Of a stretch of 64,000 bases of DNA, positions 21,101 to 42,207 are shown one piece after another. Under the pieces are notes generated by a model. It was not told the origin of the DNA, searched no databases, and worked only from the letters and a program-made list of their open reading frames with translations. Where the stretch lies: assembly GCF_005938675.2 (NCBI RefSeq), contig NZ_VCCH02000041.1:1-64000 (forward strand). Direction: 5' to 3'. The DNA comes from Mycobacterium sp. KBS0706. GTDB lineage: Bacteria > Pseudomonadota > Alphaproteobacteria > DSM-16000 > Inquilinaceae. Made by a program: the position numbers and the translations under genes. How positions within the stretch are numbered: position 1 is the stretch's first letter; the number at the start of each line of letters is the position of its first letter.

Positions 21101-22519
21101 ATGAATATATGTCTTTTGTCTAACAATTACCGGACCATGTTCTTCGAGAGGATCGGGCGTGGCCTCGAGCGGAAGGGGGTCGGGGTCTTCTGGGTCGCGG
21201 CCAGCCGGCGTTGGGCCGATGCGCTGATCAAGCAAGGCTGGCGTCGCGACCGGATCCTCTGCCTCGCCGATTTCAGGGATGAATGGCGCACGGCCCCACC
21301 GTCGGACCCGGACGATCCCGGGCTGACCGAGCTGGAGACCGGCGGGCTGGCCGCCAATGAAATCGTCCTGATGGACCGCGAGCTGTGCAAGCGGCCCTAT
21401 GGCAAGGCCTATCTGGCCGTGGTCGCGCGGGAAATCTCTCGCGTCCTGCGGGCCCACGACATCCGCGCCGCCTTCGGCGAGCAGACCTGGGCCTTCGAGC
21501 TGGCCACGGCGCGGCTGTGCAGGGCCCAGGGGCGGGGCTACTTCGTGCCGGCCACGGTGCGGGTGCCGTCCGACCGCTTCGGCTTCTTCACCGACCACAG
21601 CCAGACCGGGATCCACGAGGTCCGCAAGCCGGACCGGTCGGACCGCGAGGCCGCCGAGGCCATCGTCGAGGCGCTGCGCAGCCGCGCCTACCGGCCCTAT
21701 TATTTTCACATCAACAACAAGATCCGGTTCTTCCGCAGCCACTGGCTCGGCGAATCCGTGGTGCAGGCCTTCTCCAAGGCCACCGACGGCGACGAGACCC
21801 TGCCGACCCTGGCGCACCGCTCACGCTGGCGCTTCAGCCGCATCGTCAACACCTACCGCGTCCGCTGGCAGAAGCCGTTCCAGCGCGACGGCATCCCGGG
21901 GACGCGCCCTTTCGTGCTGGTGACGCTGCACATGCAGCCGGAGGCGTCGATCGACGTCGTCGTCCACCGCAAGGCGAACCAGATCGAGAATATCCGGGCC
22001 CTGTCGCGGGTGATCCCGCATGGCTGGGAGATCTACGTCAAGGAGCATTCGAACGCGCTCGGCTTCCGCGCGCCGCGCTTCTATGACGAGTTGCGGGGGG
22101 TCCCGGGCGTCCGCCTGATCGATCCCCATGCCGACACCTTCCGGCTGATGGAGGCGGCGCAACTGGTGCTGTCGCCCTCGGGCACCGTCTGCCTCGAGGC
22201 CGGTCTGCTCGGCCTCAAGGCCGGGACCTTCGCGTCGATGTACTTCGCCCCGGTGATGTCGCCGGGTACGATCGACCTGTCGGCGTTGACCCGCGCCGGT
22301 TTCGAGCGCCTGCTGCAGCAGGACGATCGCGACGGCCGGCCCGAGCCGGTCGCCTTCCTGAGCTGGCTCTACGCCCAGTCCTTCCCCGGCCGGGTGGGCG
22401 ACCCCGTCCACGACCCGGGCAGCATGACCGAGGAGAATGTGGCGATCGTGGTCGATGGCTTCATGACGCTGCTCAGGGGCGTGGAAGCGCGCCGGCAACC
22501 GAATGCGAGTGCGGCATGA
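21101..22519 (+). CDS. Capsule-synthesis-type glycosyltransferase-like protein
   Basis: A 472-residue protein most like capsule polysaccharide biosynthesis proteins with a GT-B-type fold. Supporting segments are LVTLHMQPEASIDVV, the YVKEHSNALGFR block near residue 322, LIDPHADTFRLMEAA and SPSGTVCLEAGLLG near residue 365, which match the nucleotide-sugar half of KpsS/KpsC-like enzymes. The ATG at 21101 gives a clean N-terminus (MNICLLSNNYRTMFFERIG); an in-frame ATG 13 codons earlier lies in AT-richer leader DNA. Its stop overlaps the start of the Wzz-like gene by four bases, so the pair is translationally coupled. Confidence 0.72.
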   Translation: MNICLLSNNYRTMFFERIGRGLERKGVGVFWVAASRRWADALIKQGWRRDRILCLADFRDEWRTAPPSDPDDPGLTELETGGLAANEIVLMDRELCKRPYGKAYLAVVAREISRVLRAHDIRAAFGEQTWAFELATARLCRAQGRGYFVPATVRVPSDRFGFFTDHSQTGIHEVRKPDRSDREAAEAIVEALRSRAYRPYYFHINNKIRFFRSHWLGESVVQAFSKATDGDETLPTLAHRSRWRFSRIVNTYRVRWQKPFQRDGIPGTRPFVLVTLHMQPEASIDVVVHRKANQIENIRALSRVIPHGWEIYVKEHSNALGFRAPRFYDELRGVPGVRLIDPHADTFRLMEAAQLVLSPSGTVCLEAGLLGLKAGTFASMYFAPVMSPGTIDLSALTRAGFERLLQQDDRDGRPEPVAFLSWLYAQSFPGRVGDPVHDPGSMTEENVAIVVDGFMTLLRGVEARRQPNASAA

Positions 22520-23481
22520 CCGTCGCCGCCGACCATCATCGCCTCGGCCCCGTACCGAAGGCGGCCGACGCCGCGCCCGACCGCGAGCCTGCCCGTTCGA
22601 GCGAAACCATCGCCCAGGAGCTGATCGGCTCGGCCTGGCGCCACAAATTGCTGGTGGCTGTCATAACGCTGGTGGCGATCGGCCTCGGGGTCGGCTGGAT
22701 CCTGATCTCGCCGAAGCGCTACACCTCGCGGCTCGTCGTCATGCCGACCGAAGCGTCGCAGCAGCTGTCCGACCTGCTGCGCAACGCCGGCGCCTCGGCG
22801 ATCGCCAATTCCCTCGGCGGCCTGACCGGCACCGAGCAGGTCACCTATTTCGACCGTTTCTCCAAGCAGCTGACCTCGGTGAACACGGCGTCGGCCCTGA
22901 AGGACCATGCCGGGCTGATCGAGAGCCTGATGAGCCTGCGCTGGAACGACCAGAAGAAGATCTGGGAAAGCGATTCGTTCCTGACCCCGGTCAAGGCCTA
23001 TTTCGGCCTCGACACCGATGTCGACACCAGCGCCCAGGCGGTCGCCGAATTCCTGCGCAAGAATGTCAACCAGGAGCAGGACCGCGATTCGCCGATCACC
23101 ACCCTGTCGCTCGACGCGACCGACGCCGAGGTGGCACGCCAGACCCTGCGCTATCTGCACCAGTACAGCGATGACCGGATCAAGCAGGCGATCTACCAGC
23201 AGACTCAGAGCAAGCTCGAATACCTGCAGCGGCGGCTGCAGAGCGTCACCGTCAACGACTATCGGCAGACCCTGATCGGCCTGATCCTGGACCAGGAGAA
23301 GATCCTGATGCTGATCCAGCCGAACCTGCCCTTCGCCGCCGAGGCGCTGGAGCCGCCGGAGGTGCTGTCGGAGCCGACCTCGCCGAAGAAGAGCCGCATC
23401 CTTGCCCTGGCCATGCTGCTCGGCCTCGCGGTGGGCACCTTCGTCGCCCACCGCATCGACCGCAGGCGGCGCCGGGCCTGA
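22516..23481 (+). CDS. Wzz-like polysaccharide chain-length / co-polymerase protein
   Basis: A 321-residue inner-membrane protein with the polysaccharide co-polymerase layout: a membrane helix near residues 43-66 (KLLVAVITLVAIGLGVGWILI), a large periplasmic part with the typical RYTSRLVVMP start and predicted coiled coils (QAIYQQTQSKLEYLQRR), and a second helix near 295-312. Such proteins set polymer length or help export. No tyrosine kinase domain is attached. It overlaps the preceding gene by ATGA and ends 21 bases before the facing epimerase gene. Confidence 0.82.
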   Translation: MTVAADHHRLGPVPKAADAAPDREPARSSETIAQELIGSAWRHKLLVAVITLVAIGLGVGWILISPKRYTSRLVVMPTEASQQLSDLLRNAGASAIANSLGGLTGTEQVTYFDRFSKQLTSVNTASALKDHAGLIESLMSLRWNDQKKIWESDSFLTPVKAYFGLDTDVDTSAQAVAEFLRKNVNQEQDRDSPITTLSLDATDAEVARQTLRYLHQYSDDRIKQAIYQQTQSKLEYLQRRLQSVTVNDYRQTLIGLILDQEKILMLIQPNLPFAAEALEPPEVLSEPTSPKKSRILALAMLLGLAVGTFVAHRIDRRRRRA

Positions 23482-23502
23482 GAGCGGCGGCAGGCTTCGG
23501 GA

Positions 23503-24459
23503 TCAGGCGATCTTGCTCAAGGGGCGCGGCTCGGATGCGACGGTCCTCCGCACCAGGTCGCGCAAGCCCTCCTCGAGCGACCATTTCGGAGTCCAGCCGA
23601 GCGCCGAGCGGATCTTGCCGGTGTCGGCGGAAAGCGACGGGCGGTCGAATTTCCGGAACTGCTTCTGGTCCTCGACCACCGGCCGGGGGTCGCCGACCAG
23701 GCGTCGGATGGTCTCGACCACGTCGCGCACCGGCGTCGGCGCCGCGGAGGCGACGTTGAACACCTCGAACCGCCCGGTGTCCTGGAACAGCGCGGCGATC
23801 GCGGCATCGGCGATGTCGGCGACATGGATGAAGTCGCGGGTGGCGCCGAGATAGCCCATGCGGATCTCCGGCTGGGACCGGTCGCGCATCCGGCTCAGGG
23901 CGTCGGGGATCAGATGCGGGTTGGTCTCGCCCGGGCCGAAGGCGTTGGCGAAGCGCAGGGCCACGCCGGACAGCCGGTCGCTGGTGCGGGTGGCGTAGGC
24001 CAGCAGGGTCTCGCCCAGCAGCTTCGACAGGCCGTAGGCGTTGACCGGGGCGGGCTGGTCGGTCTCGCGATGGACCCGGTCTTCCGCGGCGTAGACATCC
24101 ATGGTCGAGGCGAAGACGACCTTGCGCGCCGGGGTCCGCTCCAGCGCCCGCAGCACCAGCTCGGTGCCTCGGACATTGGTTGCGAAGGTCTCGTCCGGAT
24201 GGCTCATGCAATAGGGGATGAAGTGGATCGCGGCGAAATGGATGGCGCCGTCCGGCTGGAACCCCTCGACCGCCTCCATGAGCTCGGTGCTGCTGCATGC
24301 GGCGAGGTCGAGGCGCTTGAGCACCGCCTCCTCGGGCAGCGAGCTCTCCCGGCCGAAGGACAGATTGTCGACGGCCAGGATCTCGTGGCCGTCGCGCGCC
24401 AGGCGCCGGGTGATCTGGCTGCCGATGAATCCGGCCGCGCCCGTGATCAGAATGCGCAT
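23503..24459 (-). CDS. NAD-dependent epimerase/dehydratase (sugar nucleotide type)
   Basis: A 318-residue extended SDR, probably a UDP-glucose 4-epimerase-like enzyme. The NAD motif is TGAAGFIG at residues 6-13, the catalytic residues appear as ASTMDVY and YGLSK near residue 150, and RFANAFGPGE and DFIHVADIADA follow. The HFAAIHFIPYCMSHPDETFATNVRG-type block fits GalE relatives. Its start lies inside the end of the GT4 gene, overlapping 13 bases, so the two are one unit. The exact sugar is not predicted. Confidence 0.87.
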   Translation of the reverse strand: MRILITGAAGFIGSQITRRLARDGHEILAVDNLSFGRESSLPEEAVLKRLDLAACSSTELMEAVEGFQPDGAIHFAAIHFIPYCMSHPDETFATNVRGTELVLRALERTPARKVVFASTMDVYAAEDRVHRETDQPAPVNAYGLSKLLGETLLAYATRTSDRLSGVALRFANAFGPGETNPHLIPDALSRMRDRSQPEIRMGYLGATRDFIHVADIADAAIAALFQDTGRFEVFNVASAAPTPVRDVVETIRRLVGDPRPVVEDQKQFRKFDRPSLSADTGKIRSALGWTPKWSLEEGLRDLVRRTVASEPRPLSKIA

Positions 24460-25589
24460 GAATCCTGAACCTTCACGTTTGAAATTCCGCCCACGGCCCG
24501 GGCCTCGAGCTGTTCCGCGAGCGCCTGCCAATCCAGCTCGTCGGCGCGGCTCAGGCCGCGCCATGACAGCTCCTCCCATCGGTCGGCGGCGGTGATCAGC
24601 CCGCCGGTGAAGGCTTCCATCTCCGGCTCGGTGACGATGCCGCAGCCGTAATGGTCGACGACGTCGCCGGTGCCGTTCTCCGCGAAGCGCGCGGTCACCG
24701 TCGGCAGGCCGCTGGCCATGGCCTCGGCGACGATGCGGGGAAAGCCCTCGCGCCGGCTCGGGATCGCCAGCAGCCTGGCCCCTCCCAGCAGGTCGATCTT
24801 CTGCTGCTCGCTGACCGGGCCCAGGATCCGGATCTGCCCCGCGGCCGGCGAGGCCGCCGCATGGGCGCGCAGCGCCGGCAGCGCCGGACCGTCCCCGGCG
24901 ATCACCAGCTCGTCGTCGCCCAGCGACCCGGCCCGGTTGTGGCCGGCCGCCTTCAGCCGGGCGAAGGCGTCGATCAGGAAGGTCAGGTTCTTGTGCGCCG
25001 TGATGCGGCCGAGATACAGGATGTCGCGGCGCTCCGCGGCCGGCAGGCTGCGATAAGCTGACCGGCGGATGCCGCTCGGCAGGTAGAACACCGGCCGGCC
25101 CGATGCGGCGCCGATGCGGTCGCACACCGCCGGGCCGACGCCCATGTTCTGCCCGCTCAGGCGGGGCAGCATCCATTGCATGAAACGGTAGAAGCGGGCC
25201 TCGCGCACCTCGCACCAGTCGAGCACGGCGCCCTGCCGGGCGCGGCGCGGCGCGAGGGCGATATGGGCCAGGGGCCATTGGTTGAACAGGCTGAGGTCGA
25301 AGCTGCGCGCCTTCAGCACGCCGCGCACCCAGGTTGCATATTTTAGTATGGTTACCGGATTCCGAGGTAATAGGCGGGATTGCGGCCGTTGATAGTGCTC
25401 GTCCACGGGAAAGCGGTGGACCTCGACGCCGCTCAGGGTTTCCTGTTTCAGCAAATCGCGCCTATGCGCGATGCAATATACCGAGACGCTGTGGCCGCGC
25501 TCTCGAAACACTTGCGCGAGTTCGGCAAAGCGAATTTCCTGCCCGCCAATGCTCGGAGGATACAACTCGGTAAAAATCCCGATATTCAT
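24447..25589 (-). CDS. GT4-family glycosyltransferase
   Basis: A 380-residue GT-B glycosyltransferase. The N-terminal half starts MNIGIFTELYPPSIGGQE with the donor/acceptor glycine loop, and the C-terminal half has DILYLGRITAHKNLTFLIDA, LVIAGDGPALPAL and the retaining-GT E-x7-E motif in SRREGFPRIVAEAMASGLP. It would add a sugar to a surface polysaccharide or lipid-linked intermediate. It is the first gene of the minus-strand pair with the epimerase, with an AT-rich promoter region upstream. Confidence 0.88.
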   Translation of the reverse strand: MNIGIFTELYPPSIGGQEIRFAELAQVFRERGHSVSVYCIAHRRDLLKQETLSGVEVHRFPVDEHYQRPQSRLLPRNPVTILKYATWVRGVLKARSFDLSLFNQWPLAHIALAPRRARQGAVLDWCEVREARFYRFMQWMLPRLSGQNMGVGPAVCDRIGAASGRPVFYLPSGIRRSAYRSLPAAERRDILYLGRITAHKNLTFLIDAFARLKAAGHNRAGSLGDDELVIAGDGPALPALRAHAAASPAAGQIRILGPVSEQQKIDLLGGARLLAIPSRREGFPRIVAEAMASGLPTVTARFAENGTGDVVDHYGCGIVTEPEMEAFTGGLITAADRWEELSWRGLSRADELDWQALAEQLEARAVGGISNVKVQDSCAF

Positions 25590-25613
25590 CCCAACTCACC
25601 AGCAGGTGCGCAT

Positions 25614-25641
25614 AAAATATCATGCGCTAATGTTGTCGCAA
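25614..25641 (-). promoter_or_regulatory. Possible promoter for the GT4-epimerase pair
   Basis: On the minus strand TTGCGA (25641-25636) and TATTTT (25619-25614) are separated by 16 bases, 24 bases upstream of the GT4 start, in the most AT-rich gap of the window. It is a visual match only. Confidence 0.35.
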
Positions 25642-25720
25642 CCGTTAACGAGAATTAGATAGCACGGTCGGACCGCCGGCAAGAACAAATTCTACCGCAA
25701 ACCGCCTGGCGGACCGGCCT

Positions 25721-26608
25721 TCAGCCCGCATCCGGCGTGGCTTCGGACCGGCGCGGCCAGGCGTCGAGCCAGAGCTGCTCGGCCAGAGCCTCACGGAAAT
25801 TATGCTGCGGGGCATAGCCGATCGCCTGCCGCGCCGCGTCGATCGACGTGACGCGGTCGATCGTGGCCGGCAGTCGCCAGCCGAGCTGCCGGTAGGCGCC
25901 CTCGACGAAGGGGTGCTGCCGGCGCAGCGCCGGCAGCGGGTCCCGGCGCAGCCGCCCGCAATCCTCCGCCGTGAACGGGCTGGCGGCGGCGATGTTCAGC
26001 ACCCGGGCGCCGCCACCCGGCCATTCCGCCGCCAGGATATGCGCCGCCGCGACATCCCGCGGGTCGACGCCGCGATACAGCCGGTCGTTCACCGTCTCGT
26101 TCGGCGGCGCCGGGAAGAACCGGCCGCAGCGCAGGATCAGGCAGCCGTCGGGGAACGACCCGGCGGCCGCCAGGACCAGAGCCTCGGCGGCGCGCTTGCT
26201 CTCCTCATACGGCGTCTCCGGCATCGCCGGCAGGTCCTCGGTCACCCAGACCGCGGCGTCGGCGGACCGGATCGCGCCGCCGTAGAGCGCGGTGGTGCTG
26301 GTCAGCACCAGCCGGCGCACCCCGGCCTCGCGCGCGGCCGCGATCACCGCCTCGGTGCCGCCGACATTGATCCGCTGGAACTCCCCGGCCACGGACGGCG
26401 CTGCCGGGCCGCCGTTCAGTCCGGCGGTGTGGATCACCGCCCGGGCGCCGCGGAAGGCCCGGCGCAGGGTGACGCCGTCCAGGATGTCGGCGCGATGAGT
26501 CACGGTCGGCGCCTCGACCCGGTCGACCCCGGCCACCGGCCCGCCGCACAGCAGCGATGCGGCGATGCGGGAGCCGAGATAGCCGGCGCTGCCGGTGACG
26601 ACGATCAT
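25721..26608 (-). CDS. NAD-dependent epimerase/dehydratase (reductase-like)
   Basis: A 295-residue extended SDR. The cofactor motif is TGSAGYLG at residues 5-12, the catalytic region has TSTTALYGG and YEESK near residue 140, and ILRCGRFF follows. Compared with the epimerase at 23.5 kb it lacks the classic GalE substrate block, so dehydratase, reductase or epimerase activity are all possible. The ATG at 26608 overlaps the ubiG stop by four bases (ATGA), so translation is coupled to ubiG even though the neighbouring polysaccharide genes suggest a sugar role. Confidence 0.85.
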   Translation of the reverse strand: MIVVTGSAGYLGSRIAASLLCGGPVAGVDRVEAPTVTHRADILDGVTLRRAFRGARAVIHTAGLNGGPAAPSVAGEFQRINVGGTEAVIAAAREAGVRRLVLTSTTALYGGAIRSADAAVWVTEDLPAMPETPYEESKRAAEALVLAAAGSFPDGCLILRCGRFFPAPPNETVNDRLYRGVDPRDVAAAHILAAEWPGGGARVLNIAAASPFTAEDCGRLRRDPLPALRRQHPFVEGAYRQLGWRLPATIDRVTSIDAARQAIGYAPQHNFREALAEQLWLDAWPRRSEATPDAG

Positions 26609-38142: not shown

Positions 38143-39438
38143 CTACCGGACGCGGAACAGCGGCACCAATGGCTCGCAGCGCAGCTCCGCCCGCACCCGC
38201 TGCTGGCCGATCGCCGCCGACAGCAGGGCGAAGACCTCGTCATAGACGGTCAGCACGTGGTCGACATCGGCCGGGCTGTGGGCATAGCTCATATTGTGGC
38301 TGCCGAGCGAAAGCAGGCCGCGGGCGAAGATCTCCTGCAGCCACAGCGTCTTGATCTCGAAGGCGCTGGCGTCCGGCTGGTCCTTGATCGCCAGGAAGGT
38401 CCAGGACGGGTGGCCGGACAGAGACAGCACATCGCCCAGCTTGTGCCGCTCGATCAGCGCCGCGGTGCCGTCGCGCAGGCTGGTGCCCAACTCGGCCATG
38501 TGCCGGGTCACCGGCTCGCGCACCACCTTGTCCAGCGTCGCCCGGGCCGCGGCCAGCGACAGCGTCTCGCCGCCCATGGTGAAGGAGAAGAAGATCTCCT
38601 CCATCTCCATCATCAGGTCGCGCCGGCCGCACACCGCCGACAGCGGATAGCCGTTGGCGATGCCCTTGCCCAGCGTGGTCAGGTCGGGGATGACGCCGAA
38701 CAGCTCCTGCGCGCCGCCATTGGCGACGCGGAAGCCGGTGATGGTCTCGTCGAACACCAGCACCGCGCCATGCCTGATCGCCCGTTCGCGCACCCCCTCC
38801 AGATAACCCGCGGCCGGGAAGGCGACGTTCATCGGCTCCATCACGATCGCGGCCACGGCATGCTCGTCCAGCAGCCGGTCCAGCGCCGCCAGGTCGTTGT
38901 AGGGGAAGGTGTGGGTCAGGGCGCGGGTCGCTTCCGGCACGCCGCGGTTGCGGGCGGTGGCGCCGATATACCAGTCCTGCCAGCCGTGATAGCCGCAGAC
39001 CAGCACATGGTCGCGGCCGGTATAGGCGCGGGCGACGCGGACCGCGCCGGCGGTGGCATCCGACCCGTTCTTGCCGAAGCGCACCATCTCGGCCGAAGGC
39101 ACGATCGCCACCAGGCGCTCCGCCACCTCGGCCTCGAGCGGGCTCGACAGGCTGAAGATGGTGCCGTCGTCGACCTGTGCCTTGACCGCGGCGGTGACGT
39201 CCGGGTCGTTGTAGCCCAGCGTCACCGAGGCCAGGCCGTTGATGAAGTCGATATACTCGTTGCCGTCGACATCCCACAGCCGGCTGCCCTGGCCGCGGGC
39301 GGCGAAATAGGGCGACACGCCGAGCGGATACTGTGTGATGCTCTTGCTGAAGGTCTGGGCGCCGAGCGGGATGGTCTGCCGGGCCCGGTCGAGCATCGCC
39401 TCGGATGCCGCATAGCGTTCTGCCACTGTGGTCCTCAC
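38143..39438 (-). CDS. Class III aminotransferase (GSA-aminotransferase-like)
   Basis: A 431-residue PLP enzyme. The PLP lysine lies in TLGKGIANGYPLSAVCG near residue 260, and earlier blocks GKNGSDATAGAVRVARA and CGYHGWQDWYIGA match the glutamate-1-semialdehyde aminotransferase group. Members outside haem synthesis aminate sugars or amino acids in surface-glycan gene clusters, and the neighbours here point that way. The start is a GTG at 39438, overlapping the SpsF-like stop by four bases (GTGA), so translation is coupled. It is the last gene of a four-gene unit. Confidence 0.88.
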   Translation of the reverse strand: MRTTVAERYAASEAMLDRARQTIPLGAQTFSKSITQYPLGVSPYFAARGQGSRLWDVDGNEYIDFINGLASVTLGYNDPDVTAAVKAQVDDGTIFSLSSPLEAEVAERLVAIVPSAEMVRFGKNGSDATAGAVRVARAYTGRDHVLVCGYHGWQDWYIGATARNRGVPEATRALTHTFPYNDLAALDRLLDEHAVAAIVMEPMNVAFPAAGYLEGVRERAIRHGAVLVFDETITGFRVANGGAQELFGVIPDLTTLGKGIANGYPLSAVCGRRDLMMEMEEIFFSFTMGGETLSLAAARATLDKVVREPVTRHMAELGTSLRDGTAALIERHKLGDVLSLSGHPSWTFLAIKDQPDASAFEIKTLWLQEIFARGLLSLGSHNMSYAHSPADVDHVLTVYDEVFALLSAAIGQQRVRAELRCEPLVPLFRVR

Positions 39439-40196
39439 GGTTTGGCGGCGTCCTGGGCGAGCGAGCGCTCCAGGGCCTCGTTCCGCCGGTGGGCGCGGTT
39501 GAGCGCGGCGATCTCCGGATGCGCCGCCAGGAAAGCCAGGATGTCCTCTGTGCCGAAGGCCGGGTTGGCCGGGTACAGCGCGGCATACACCGCCCGCACC
39601 ATGGCCAGGTCCTCCGGCGTGTCGACGGTCCAGCGCTGGTCCGACAGGTCGGTGTCGCCGACCAGGCTGCCCAGCCGGAACCGTTCCGGCCGGGTGTAGA
39701 TGAAGCGGGTGACGTGCTCGCGGTCCGACGGCAGCACCGCCTCGCGCCACGCCGCCTCCAGCACCTCGGCGCGCATCACCTCGGCGTCCAGCCCGTCGGG
39801 CCAGCGCGGGTTCAGCGTGTTGCAGGAATGGTCGTAGCCGCCGGCGACATGCAGCTCGACCAGCCGGTCGATCAGCTCCGGATCGGCCAGCGGGCAGTCG
39901 CCGGTCAGGCGCACGATCTGGTCGGCGCCGTGGCCGGACGCGGCGGCGTGGAACCGGTCCAGCACGTCGTCCAGGCTGCCGCGGAAGCAGTCGATGCCGA
40001 TCCGACCGGCCAGATCGCCCAGCGCGTCGTCGGCGGCGTCGGTGCTGGTCGCCAGCAGCAGCCGGTCGATCATCCGGCAGCGCCGCAGCCGCTCGACCTG
40101 CCGCGCCAGCATCGGCTCGCCGAGCAGATCGGCCATCACCTTGCCGGGCAGCCGCGACGACGACATCCGCGCCTGCAGGATCGCCAGCACCGTCAT
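39435..40196 (-). CDS. SpsF-type cytidylyltransferase
   Basis: A 253-residue nucleotidyltransferase of the family that includes SpsF and CMP-sugar synthetases. The nucleotide-binding start AILQARMSSSRLPGKVM lies at residues 4-20, then DQIVRLTGDCPLADPELID near residue 95. It would activate a sugar with CMP or another nucleotide. The ATG at 40196 overlaps the aldo/keto reductase stop as ATGA, tying it to the neighbours. Homologues sit in spore coat, legionaminic-acid-like and flagellin-glycan clusters. Confidence 0.87.
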   Translation of the reverse strand: MTVLAILQARMSSSRLPGKVMADLLGEPMLARQVERLRRCRMIDRLLLATSTDAADDALGDLAGRIGIDCFRGSLDDVLDRFHAAASGHGADQIVRLTGDCPLADPELIDRLVELHVAGGYDHSCNTLNPRWPDGLDAEVMRAEVLEAAWREAVLPSDREHVTRFIYTRPERFRLGSLVGDTDLSDQRWTVDTPEDLAMVRAVYAALYPANPAFGTEDILAFLAAHPEIAALNRAHRRNEALERSLAQDAAKP

Positions 40197-41434
40197 GTCC
40201 GCTCCCAATAGCTCTTATCGTCCAGGATGAAGCGCCCCCCGGCGCTGGTCCAGCCGGCGCGGGCGCAAGGGGCGATCAGCCGGCGCAGCCCGAGCTGCTC
40301 GAAAGCCAGCCGCGAGGCCAGCGCCACCGCCTCGTCCTGCCAGGTGGCGGGCAGTCCCTCCGCATTCTGCAGGGCCAGGGTTGCCTCGCCGGCGGCGCGG
40401 TCGATCGGGCCGATCCGCACGGTGCCACGGGCTGCGCCGGCCTCCTTGGCGTGCACGGCCAGCACCACGGTGTCGCCGGATGCCGTCGGCCGCAGCGCCA
40501 CGGCGGCGCCGGTCAGGATCGCGGCCGGGCGGCCGCCGGACGGCCACAGGGCAGGGTTCAGCACCAGGTCGTCGGTCGACTGCACCGGCGCCACCGGCGG
40601 CGGCGCCGCGGCGACGGCCTGCAGGATGCCGGCCAGCTCCTCCGGCCGGGTCACGCCGACCAGGGCGGTGCCGATCTCCGGCCGGCCGATCACCGCGCCC
40701 AGCGCCGCCGCCAGCGGGTCGGCGCCCGAAGCGGCGACGGCGTCGCGCCAGCGCCCGACCAGAGCCCCCGCCTCGGGCGAGACCTGGACGGCATGGGCGG
40801 GCGGGGCGAGCAGCAGGCCCTGCAGGAACACCGACCGGGCGTGCAATTCGATCCCCTGGTCCGCCAGCGCCGCCAGGCGGGCCAGGTCGATACGGCCGTC
40901 CACAGCGTTCCAGGGCAGCTGCACCATGTCGAGCGGGTAGCGCGCCAGCACGGCGTCGAGCTGCCCGGCGCTGTAGATCGACGCGCCGATGTGCTCGACC
41001 TCCCCAGCCCGCTTCAGCTCCGTCATTGCCGCCCACAGCGCCGGGCCGCCGGGCCGCAGCAGGTCGTTGGCGTTGTGGGTCAAGAGGCCGGCCAGCCGGC
41101 CGCGGCGCAACTTCGCCCGCGAGGCCGTGAAGGAGTCCCGCACGGCGCGCCGGACCTGGCCTTCGTCGCGCAGCCCGGCCAGATGCGGCGTCTTGGTGAC
41201 GATGCGGAAGCGATGCGTCGACGGCAGCACCTCGCCCAGCACCTGCTCGGCGGTGCCGTAGGCCGGGGCGGTGTCCAGCACCCCGATCCCGGCAGCGGCG
41301 GCCGCCTCCAGGATCGCCGCCACATCCTCGGGCGGGCAGATGCCGCGGTCGTTGGCGATGCCGTAGTCGAGCCCGAACTGGGCGGTGCCGAGGCCCAGCG
41401 CCGCGGCGCCGCGCCATGGCGGTGAGACGCTCAA
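40193..41434 (-). CDS. Aldo/keto reductase with extra C-terminal domain
   Basis: A 413-residue protein. The first 285 residues form an aldo/keto reductase barrel: LGLGTAQFGLDYGIANDRG, GVLDTAPAYGTAEQVLG (catalytic Asp and Tyr) and VTKTPHL. Usual barrels end near residue 300; here about 120 residues follow, beginning DLVLNPALW and ending with LASRLAFEQLGLRRLIAP and ILDDKSYWER, which looks like the last third of a PseH-like acetyltransferase. The start is a TTG at 41434 overlapping the upstream stop (TTGA). A rare start plus overlap at both ends suggests tight stoichiometric control. Confidence 0.82.
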   Translation of the reverse strand: MSVSPPWRGAAALGLGTAQFGLDYGIANDRGICPPEDVAAILEAAAAAGIGVLDTAPAYGTAEQVLGEVLPSTHRFRIVTKTPHLAGLRDEGQVRRAVRDSFTASRAKLRRGRLAGLLTHNANDLLRPGGPALWAAMTELKRAGEVEHIGASIYSAGQLDAVLARYPLDMVQLPWNAVDGRIDLARLAALADQGIELHARSVFLQGLLLAPPAHAVQVSPEAGALVGRWRDAVAASGADPLAAALGAVIGRPEIGTALVGVTRPEELAGILQAVAAAPPPVAPVQSTDDLVLNPALWPSGGRPAAILTGAAVALRPTASGDTVVLAVHAKEAGAARGTVRIGPIDRAAGEATLALQNAEGLPATWQDEAVALASRLAFEQLGLRRLIAPCARAGWTSAGGRFILDDKSYWERT

Positions 41435-42207
41435 GATCCGGCCAGGCGGCGTCTCGGCGCGGCCTCTTCATCCTCGCCGTCCCGGACGCGGCGCTCGACC
41501 GTCTCGATCTCGGCCTTGTACCGGGGTAGCTCGCGCTCCAGGAACTCGGCGAGCCGGCCGGCGAAGCCGTGTTTCGGCATCGCCTTGACCAGGCGCAGCA
41601 TGACGTCGTTGCCGGGCCAGAACTGGCCGCCGCGCCGGGCCTTCAACGCTTGGTAATCCTCGACCAGGCAGCCGATCATGACGGCGTTGTCGACGGTCTC
41701 GCGGCCCTTGACGAAGCCGCGCCGCAACACCCCGTCGGTGAAATAGCCCAAGAGCTCCAGCCACTGGTTCCAGCGCGCCAGGCCGGGATGGGCCTGGCCG
41801 GCCCAGACCCGGTCCAGCCCCATGCGCTGGAAGGCGTGCTCGGTCACCCGCGCCATGGCCTCCAGCTGGATCAGCTGGCGTCCCGGGGGCGGCTTGCCGA
41901 CCACCAGCGAGATCTGGGCCGAACGGGCGATCCAGTCGATCGCTGACAGCGAGATGATGCCGTACAGCGGCCCGCCGCCCTTGCCGCAGATCAGCACGGC
42001 GAAGCGGTCGCGCCTGCGGATCGAGTCCAGGAAGCTGCGCTGGTCCTCGACATGGTTCGGGTAGATGCCCTGGGACAGCCAGCGCGTCGTCCGGGCGTCG
42101 TTGAACCAGTCGGCCCAGCCGTCCTCGATCGCCGCCTCGGACGGCACGCACAGATCGACGGTCTCGCCTTCAATGAAGACGGAATAGCGCGGCGCCTCGT
42201 CCCCCAT
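41431..42207 (-). CDS. GNAT-type N-acetyltransferase (PseH-like)
   Basis: A 258-residue acetyltransferase, first gene of the cassette. The N-terminal half has WADWFNDARTTRWLSQGIYP and FAVLICGKGGGPLYGIISLSAIDWIARSAQISLVVGK (quoted as two blocks), and MARVTEHAFQRMGLDRVWAG fits the helix after the acetyl-CoA loop in PseH/RimJ-like enzymes. The acetyl-CoA loop itself is less canonical (PPPGRQLI). It would acetylate an amino sugar. Its stop overlaps the aldo/keto reductase TTG start. Confidence 0.8.
   Translation of the reverse strand: MGDEAPRYSVFIEGETVDLCVPSEAAIEDGWADWFNDARTTRWLSQGIYPNHVEDQRSFLDSIRRRDRFAVLICGKGGGPLYGIISLSAIDWIARSAQISLVVGKPPPGRQLIQLEAMARVTEHAFQRMGLDRVWAGQAHPGLARWNQWLELLGYFTDGVLRRGFVKGRETVDNAVMIGCLVEDYQALKARRGGQFWPGNDVMLRLVKAMPKHGFAGRLAEFLERELPRYKAEIETVERRVRDGEDEEAAPRRRLAGS

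Follow-up and report, generated by a model that had tools for sequence, protein, structure and literature searches.

We analyzed a four-gene cassette at positions 38143 to 42207 of a 64,000-nucleotide stretch of DNA (the window; positions 1 to 64,000 of contig NZ_VCCH02000041.1) from the Inquilinaceae genome deposited as Mycobacterium sp. KBS0706. The cassette encodes a GNAT-fold protein, an aldo/keto reductase (AKR), an SpsF-type cytidylyltransferase (SpsF) and a class III pyridoxal phosphate (PLP)-dependent aminotransferase (ATIII), and the key finding is that it represents a module widespread in pseudaminic acid (Pse) clusters, here present as a detached copy, and not an isolated new pathway. 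Because its homologues are found in Pse clusters and pseB, pseC, pseH, pseG and pseI are encoded elsewhere in the genome without a pseF, we interpret the cassette as the module that tailors the sugar of a dispersed Pse-type pathway and activates it with cytidine monophosphate (CMP). Gene content makes its membership in such a pathway very probable, and SpsF is with good confidence the predicted CMP-nonulosonate synthetase. The complete explanation, in which the sugar is also aminated, is slightly favored. An earlier sequence-only reading of this DNA had proposed both a nonulosonic acid pathway and a nucleotide-activating enzyme, and these proposals are supported by comparative genomics and by the presence of PseB, PseC, PseH, PseG and PseI.

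All four genes lie on the minus strand. The GNAT-fold protein (42207-41431, 258 aa) matches PF13302 (Acetyltransf_3) with 37.9 bits, the AKR (41434-40193, 413 aa, TTG start) PF00248 (Aldo_ket_red) with 99.3 bits, SpsF (40196-39435, 253 aa) PF02348 (CTP_transf_3) with 99 bits, and ATIII (39438-38143, 431 aa, GTG start), which resembles glutamate-1-semialdehyde (GSA) aminomutases, PF00202 (Aminotran_3) with 163 bits; the Pfam assignments agree with the four identities given by the sequence-only reading. Consecutive genes overlap by four bases, as read directly from the sequence: TTGA at 41431-41434 between the GNAT and AKR genes, ATGA at 40193-40196 between AKR and SpsF, and GTGA at 39435-39438 between SpsF and ATIII. 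Both these overlaps and the two rare start codons in two of the three downstream genes (TTG for AKR, GTG for ATIII) had been described correctly. Overlaps of four bases between stop and start codons are common in bacterial operons. Here they are kept throughout the genus, the ATGA and GTGA junctions in every readable congener and the GNAT/AKR junction in the readable congeners with either a TTG or a GTG start codon. The gene order is likewise conserved genus-wide, running from the beta and alpha subunits of an electron transfer flavoprotein through GNAT, AKR, SpsF and ATIII to a PRC-barrel protein; in G002 the locus is divided over two contigs, and in G005 the contig begins within the GNAT gene. 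The ATIII proteins of the congeners are 93-96% identical, and two public records named Inquilinus limosus match at 93-94%. None of the 11 other genomes of the family that were searched contains an AKR match at E ≤ 1e-30.

To place the cassette in a wider context, relatives were gathered by alignment of ATIII alone in a scan of genome contigs, which returned at least 423 relatives, of which the best 80 were kept. The kept loci come from Pseudomonadota, Bacillota, Bacteroidota, Nitrospirota, Cyanobacteriota, Myxococcota, Acidobacteriota, Planctomycetota, Spirochaetota, Thermodesulfobacteriota, Bdellovibrionota and others, and their ATIII proteins outside the genus are 58-68% identical to that of the window, which places the window protein within the Pse-associated clade (identity of at least about 58%). 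Genes in these loci were named by similarity to reference members, and some of the names were checked against curated models. The three genes AKR, SpsF and ATIII are adjacent in this order in the window cassette as well as in its homologues, and they are found within Pse clusters in at least 10 phyla, most commonly as pseB-pseC-AKR-SpsF-ATIII-pseG-pseI, with pseG often fused to a GNAT domain. Among the best 80, 58 loci outside the genus extend over at least 17 kb, and their ATIII neighbors include PseC (55 loci), PseB (55), SpsF (51), AKR (51), PseI/NeuB (50) and PseG (46), all six being present together in 36. The association extends to gene fusions: in a gammaproteobacterial bin (L075, 8348-11296) AKR, SpsF and ATIII form one protein of 982 residues, while SpsF-ATIII fusions occur in Magnetococcales (L034, L035, L065) and in a deltaproteobacterial bin (L093). 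The sequence-only reading had suggested a search for the same gene order in other genomes; the AKR-SpsF-ATIII part of that order recurs, mostly in Pse clusters, and the literature search returned neither a published function for the AKR/ATIII pair nor a precise sugar assigned to it.

The role of SpsF is indicated by what replaces it. Both SpsF and PseF occur in 2 of the 58 loci, SpsF only in 49, PseF only in 5 and neither in 2 (Fisher p = 9e-5; as the loci share descent, this p-value and the one given below overstate independence). Since a PseF-type gene usually stands in where SpsF is missing, SpsF probably performs the CMP step. PseF was the best model for each of three substitutes that were checked; L081 exceeded the PseF cut-off, L091 fell slightly short of it and L116 missed it by more. 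A comparable replacement concerns the AKR: one locus carries both the AKR and a gene for a B12-binding radical SAM protein, 50 the AKR only, 5 the radical SAM gene only and 2 neither (p = 2.7e-5). In L062, L063, L089, L092, L095 and L123, from Nitrospirota, Planctomycetota and deltaproteobacterial bins, the radical SAM gene lies between pseC and SpsF, the usual place of the AKR. That a radical enzyme can take the place of a nicotinamide enzyme is compatible with an oxidation step at this position, although the radical SAM family is broad.

Three more distant ATIII homologues (42-47% identity) served as controls. The surroundings of two are unrelated, and the third belongs to a nonulosonate-like cluster of another kind on a Methylomagnum plasmid (L194, 5247-11085). 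This ATIII (47% identity) is accompanied by an SpsF-like protein, a two-part transketolase, a short-chain dehydrogenase and a NeuB-family synthase, with no pseB or pseC, and the cluster possibly represents a different aminated ulosonic acid pathway. The ATIII search of plasmid records gave nothing above 47% identity, and in phage records one weak match to SpsF and none to the AKR was found.

We then considered the remainder of the pathway in the genus. PseB, PseC, PseH, PseG and PseI all score above their NCBIfam cut-offs elsewhere in the window genome and in congeners, with PseI, PseC and PseG in five of five genus genomes tested and PseB and PseH in three of three. Their genes are dispersed, the cassette, pseBC, pseH, pseG and pseI occupying separate sites, with pseB adjoining pseC and pseI lying on another contig than the cassette. 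The statement of the sequence-only reading that no NeuB/PseI synthase is present is accordingly correct for the window and incorrect for the genome. The PseI gene of the genus is an orphan (G000:C101 63221-64195) next to two small multidrug-resistance-type transporters and a carbohydrate kinase. PseF did not reach the NCBIfam cut-off in any of the five genus genomes, the only trace being the cassette SpsF itself with 22 to 25 bits. Apart from SpsF, the genus has one strong CTP_transf_3 match, which is read as KdsB, and one weak match; the latter was considered as a second CMP-sugar synthetase and rejected, its neighborhood in G004 showing that it lies in a MobA/MoeA-like open reading frame. 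The cassette thus appears, from gene content, to be the sole evident source of a CMP-nonulosonate synthetase for the dispersed pathway.

The best match of SpsF in the PDB is 6oew, annotated as 'Cytidylyltransferase' (E 3.9e-32). The catalytic tetrad of the AKR (D54/Y59/K81/H120) is intact in the window protein and invariant across 27 homologues, and the structural model shows an AKR fold whose close structural matches include sugar-oxidizing L-galactose dehydrogenases. In ATIII the PLP lysine is K258, which is shared by all of 10 aligned homologues, and the nearest NCBIfam model is NF004856 (PRK06209, GSA aminomutase-like), with 386.6 bits below a cut-off of 486.

The GNAT-fold protein requires separate treatment. 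It did not match the NCBIfam PseH model (TIGR03585), and in a tree of 78 GNAT domains it is placed among accessory GNATs, with PseG-fused domains, pseG-adjacent genes and the genus's own PseH on the opposite side; the central split of this tree is weakly supported (Shimodaira-Hasegawa-like approximate likelihood ratio test, 70), while shuffling the labels gives far less clustering than is observed. The acetyl-CoA motif R/Q-x-x-G-x-G/A is absent from the cassette GNAT throughout the genus and PPGRQLIQLEA-like sequences are found instead. Family models, tree and motif together rule out that this protein is PseH, the real PseH of the genus being encoded elsewhere. A second GNAT remnant is found at the C-terminus of the AKR, where a genus-specific extension of about 125 residues (40193-40579, minus strand; AKR residues about 286-413) is a truncated and degenerate domain of the accessory GNAT type. 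The extension is present in none of 68 other AKR homologues, matches the GNAT of L110 (phmmer E 3.5e-8), is placed among the accessory GNATs by the tree and also lacks the acetyl-CoA motif, which most relatives of both proteins retain. It is predicted with low confidence as beta strands and one helix (predicted local distance difference test, pLDDT, about 25 to 75) and was left out of fold matching on this account. An accessory GNAT besides PseH, which is what a third amine would need, is encoded in many homologous loci, and many relatives probably acylate the new amine. With the acetyl-CoA motif gone from both the cassette GNAT and the AKR extension, acylation is doubtful in the window genus, where the amine may remain free. 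Of the acetylating activity proposed by the sequence-only reading, the GNAT fold is retained and the acetylation itself is questionable.

In the mechanism that we propose, PseB, PseC, PseH, PseG and PseI would produce a 5,7-diamino nonulosonic acid, of which the AKR would oxidize one hydroxyl group, most likely that at C8, to a ketone. ATIII would convert the ketone to an amine, giving a sugar of the 8-amino-8-deoxy-Pse type, and SpsF, in place of the missing PseF, would couple it to CMP. The accessory GNAT would have acylated the new amine in an ancestor and may be altered or inactive in the window genus, and the activated sugar would be transferred to a capsule or exopolysaccharide and not to flagellin. 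We modestly favor the introduction of an amine by the AKR and ATIII, and by analogy to known systems C8 is a tentative position for it. A comparable system is the 8-amino-Kdo pathway of Shewanella, in which a dehydrogenase and an aminotransferase (KdnA/KdnB) replace the terminal hydroxyl group of an ulosonic acid by an amine, and CMP activation follows; these enzymes belong to other families than those of the cassette and act on an eight-carbon sugar. On the product side, an 8-amino-3,5,7,8,9-pentadeoxynonulosonic acid of the manno type is found in the O-polysaccharide of Flexibacter (now Tenacibaculum) maritimum (PMC3210612), and no cluster of the cassette type is mentioned in the main text of the paper on the T. 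maritimum genome. On the enzyme side, EpaA and EpaB of Acinetobacter baumannii prophages convert Pse to 8-epi-Pse, as established by nuclear magnetic resonance of the capsule, and EpaA combines CTP_transf_3 and Aldo_ket_red in one protein, resembling SpsF and the AKR of the window by domain type (PMC12053666). EpaA is the one SpsF-AKR protein that has been characterized, and its product points to C8 of Pse as the site of AKR-type chemistry. The EpaA system has the short-chain dehydrogenase EpaB as partner and no aminotransferase, whereas the window has separate SpsF and AKR genes and an aminotransferase. Because the dehydrogenase partner of EpaA is replaced here by a PLP aminotransferase, oxidation at C8 followed by amination is the simplest reading. 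An SpsF-AKR fusion also stands in for NeuA in a Vibrio Pse cluster (PMC7371886).

Several further systems share parts of the cassette. The O-antigen cluster of Legionella pneumophila Sg6/12 (Lp6_762 to Lp6_775) encodes a GSA-aminomutase-like protein, an SpsF/KdsB-like cytidylyltransferase and an AKR together with a DegT aminotransferase, CapD, PseG, NeuB and acetyltransferases; it differs from the window in its O-antigen setting and in its amidotransferase-like genes, and its product has not been assigned to the set (PMC3694923). The sps operon of Bacillus subtilis, which leads to CMP-legionaminic acid, also uses an SpsF-type protein, and spsF is required for the transfer of legionaminic acid onto the spore surface; no AKR or class III aminotransferase is named in that pathway, and its precursor is legionaminic and not Pse-type (PMC7439481). 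The same gene order as in the window has been published, with no function found, for group I (subgroups IA to IE) of the Aeromonas polar flagellin glycosylation islands, where the pse genes form one continuous block with links to flagellin and Maf-1 (PMC7874193). In the window genome, by contrast, the cassette is separate from the dispersed pse genes and no flagellin is recognizable. A paper on A. caviae flagellin (PMC9290775) and papers on Geobacillus and Clostridium flagellins contain nothing on the AKR/ATIII pair.

A number of observations weigh against amination as the outcome. GSA aminomutase-like enzymes can shift amino groups within a molecule, which leaves a net amination uncertain. 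The functions of the cassette enzymes are predicted from their sequences, the link to Flexibacter maritimum is made through the chemistry of its sugar, the analogy for C8 is indirect in that EpaA has a short-chain dehydrogenase and not an aminotransferase as partner, and the cassette GNAT of the window genus lacks the CoA motif. The window assembly has an estimated contamination of 9.8%, each Pse gene also being found in at least two congeners. One published mass speaks partly for a third amine. An odd nominal mass indicates an odd number of nitrogens, as in a triamino sugar, and acetamidino or amino-acid substituents likewise give an odd mass. The flagellin sugar of A. hydrophila AH-1 has a mass of 403 Da, with fragments at 342, 355 and 373 that differ by one unit from those of a Pse reference, and its published formula contains no nitrogen (PMC4691044). 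AH-1 is discussed as an example of a small island, and the main text of that paper does not allow its island subgroup to be confirmed (PMC7874193).

With a low probability, the AKR and ATIII change the stereochemistry of the sugar (at C8, at C4 or at another position) or shift an amino group within it, and SpsF activates the resulting product. The formation of 8-epi-Pse by the SpsF-AKR fusion EpaA with EpaB (PMC12053666) and the similarity of ATIII to GSA aminomutases are in line with this, as is L. pneumophila Sg6/Sg12, which carries the set, a D-glycero-D-talo (4-epi-legionaminic) polymer being cited for non-1 serogroups (PMC3694923). However, EpaB is a short-chain dehydrogenase and the epimerization of an alcohol needs no PLP aminotransferase, and by our own reckoning the D-glycero-D-talo configuration is unreachable from Pse by one or two epimerizations. 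We consider it equally improbable that the two enzymes form or alter a substituent on Pse, of an acyl or amino-acid-like kind, and leave the nine-carbon backbone as it is. Class III aminotransferases often use small amino acids or semialdehydes, and the clusters contain genes for accessory GNATs and for formyltransferase-like, PIG-L-like and methyltransferase proteins, so that substituents vary; yet the AKR and ATIII genes are coupled or fused to the cytidylyltransferase gene, suggesting a free sugar acid as substrate, and their position in the clusters is fixed whereas the acyl-tailoring genes are variable. Decay of the cassette or its recruitment to another function, such as that of a KidO-like regulatory AKR, with no sugar being made, is quite improbable. 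Among the NCBIfam models, that of KidO comes nearest to the AKR (144 bits, cut-off 244) and the CoA signature has been lost from both the GNAT and the AKR extension, but the gene order and overlaps are kept genus-wide with an ATIII conserved at 93-96% identity, the catalytic residues of the AKR and ATIII are intact, and the genus keeps a Pse pathway that would otherwise have no CMP step. Flagellin glycosylation in the window organism, the least probable of the alternatives, would correspond to homologous cassettes in the Aeromonas islands (PMC7874193), in a flagellar gene region of L036 that also encodes a Maf transferase and flagellin, and near Maf in L044, and is opposed by the lack of Flagellin_N in the window genome and of Maf-type transferases in the genomes searched, as described below.

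The destination of the sugar was considered from the genes of the window. A candidate sugar transferase, a member of a capsule-type glycosyltransferase family with no Pfam match, is encoded at 21101-22519 (plus strand, 472 aa), about 16 kb from the cassette, and is directly followed by a Wzz-like chain-length determinant (22516-23481, plus strand; PF02706, 31 bits). The best match of the glycosyltransferase is from the Pse cluster of Bradyrhizobium NAS80.1 (L050; phmmer E 9.4e-87), its family profile scores 317 bits, and tblastn detected relatives in 15 of 78 ATIII/Pse loci. Both genes are syntenic in three congeners. They form part of a small polysaccharide locus at 21101-26605, about 12 to 18 kb from the cassette, which also encodes a GT4 glycosyltransferase and an NAD-dependent epimerase. 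A capsule or exopolysaccharide is the likelier destination, linked to the cassette by family and position, and the naming of such an acceptor is a guess from the neighboring genes. No Flagellin_N match was found in the window genome (G000) or in the near-complete congener G004, and no Maf-type transferase (PF01973) in the three genus genomes searched, in which FlmG-type transferases were not searched for. Flagellin, which the sequence-only reading had named as a possible target, is accordingly unlikely. Two Flagellin_N matches are present in G003 (C5 86208-90698), alone among the three genus genomes checked, so that flagellation, unlike the cassette, seems to be variable in the genus.

The gene order and context of the cassette are not new, as homologous cassettes within Pse clusters are in print for Aeromonas (PMC7874193) and L. 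pneumophila Sg6/12 (PMC3694923). The novelty would lie in the chemistry, most likely the addition of an amine to a nonulosonic acid before CMP, and in the detached layout with its degenerate GNAT parts. If the amination takes place, the sugar would carry a third amine, with a shift of -0.98 Da for the replacement of OH by NH2, which could account for the odd-mass flagellin sugar of Aeromonas. More tentatively, the AKR, ATIII and an SpsF-type CMP synthetase may constitute a general and unrecognized route to 8-amino (triamino) nonulosonic acids in at least 10 phyla, serving capsules, O-antigens and flagella. To our knowledge, 8-amino nonulosonic acids are known from the O-antigen of one fish pathogen only. 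Many bacteria are coated with nonulosonic acids, which can act as mimics of host sialic acid, and the prediction of their structures from genes usually ends at neuraminic acid (Neu), legionaminic acid (Leg) or Pse. As the module is found in hundreds of loci, which are mostly Pse clusters where examined, many products that are predicted as plain Pse could differ from it.

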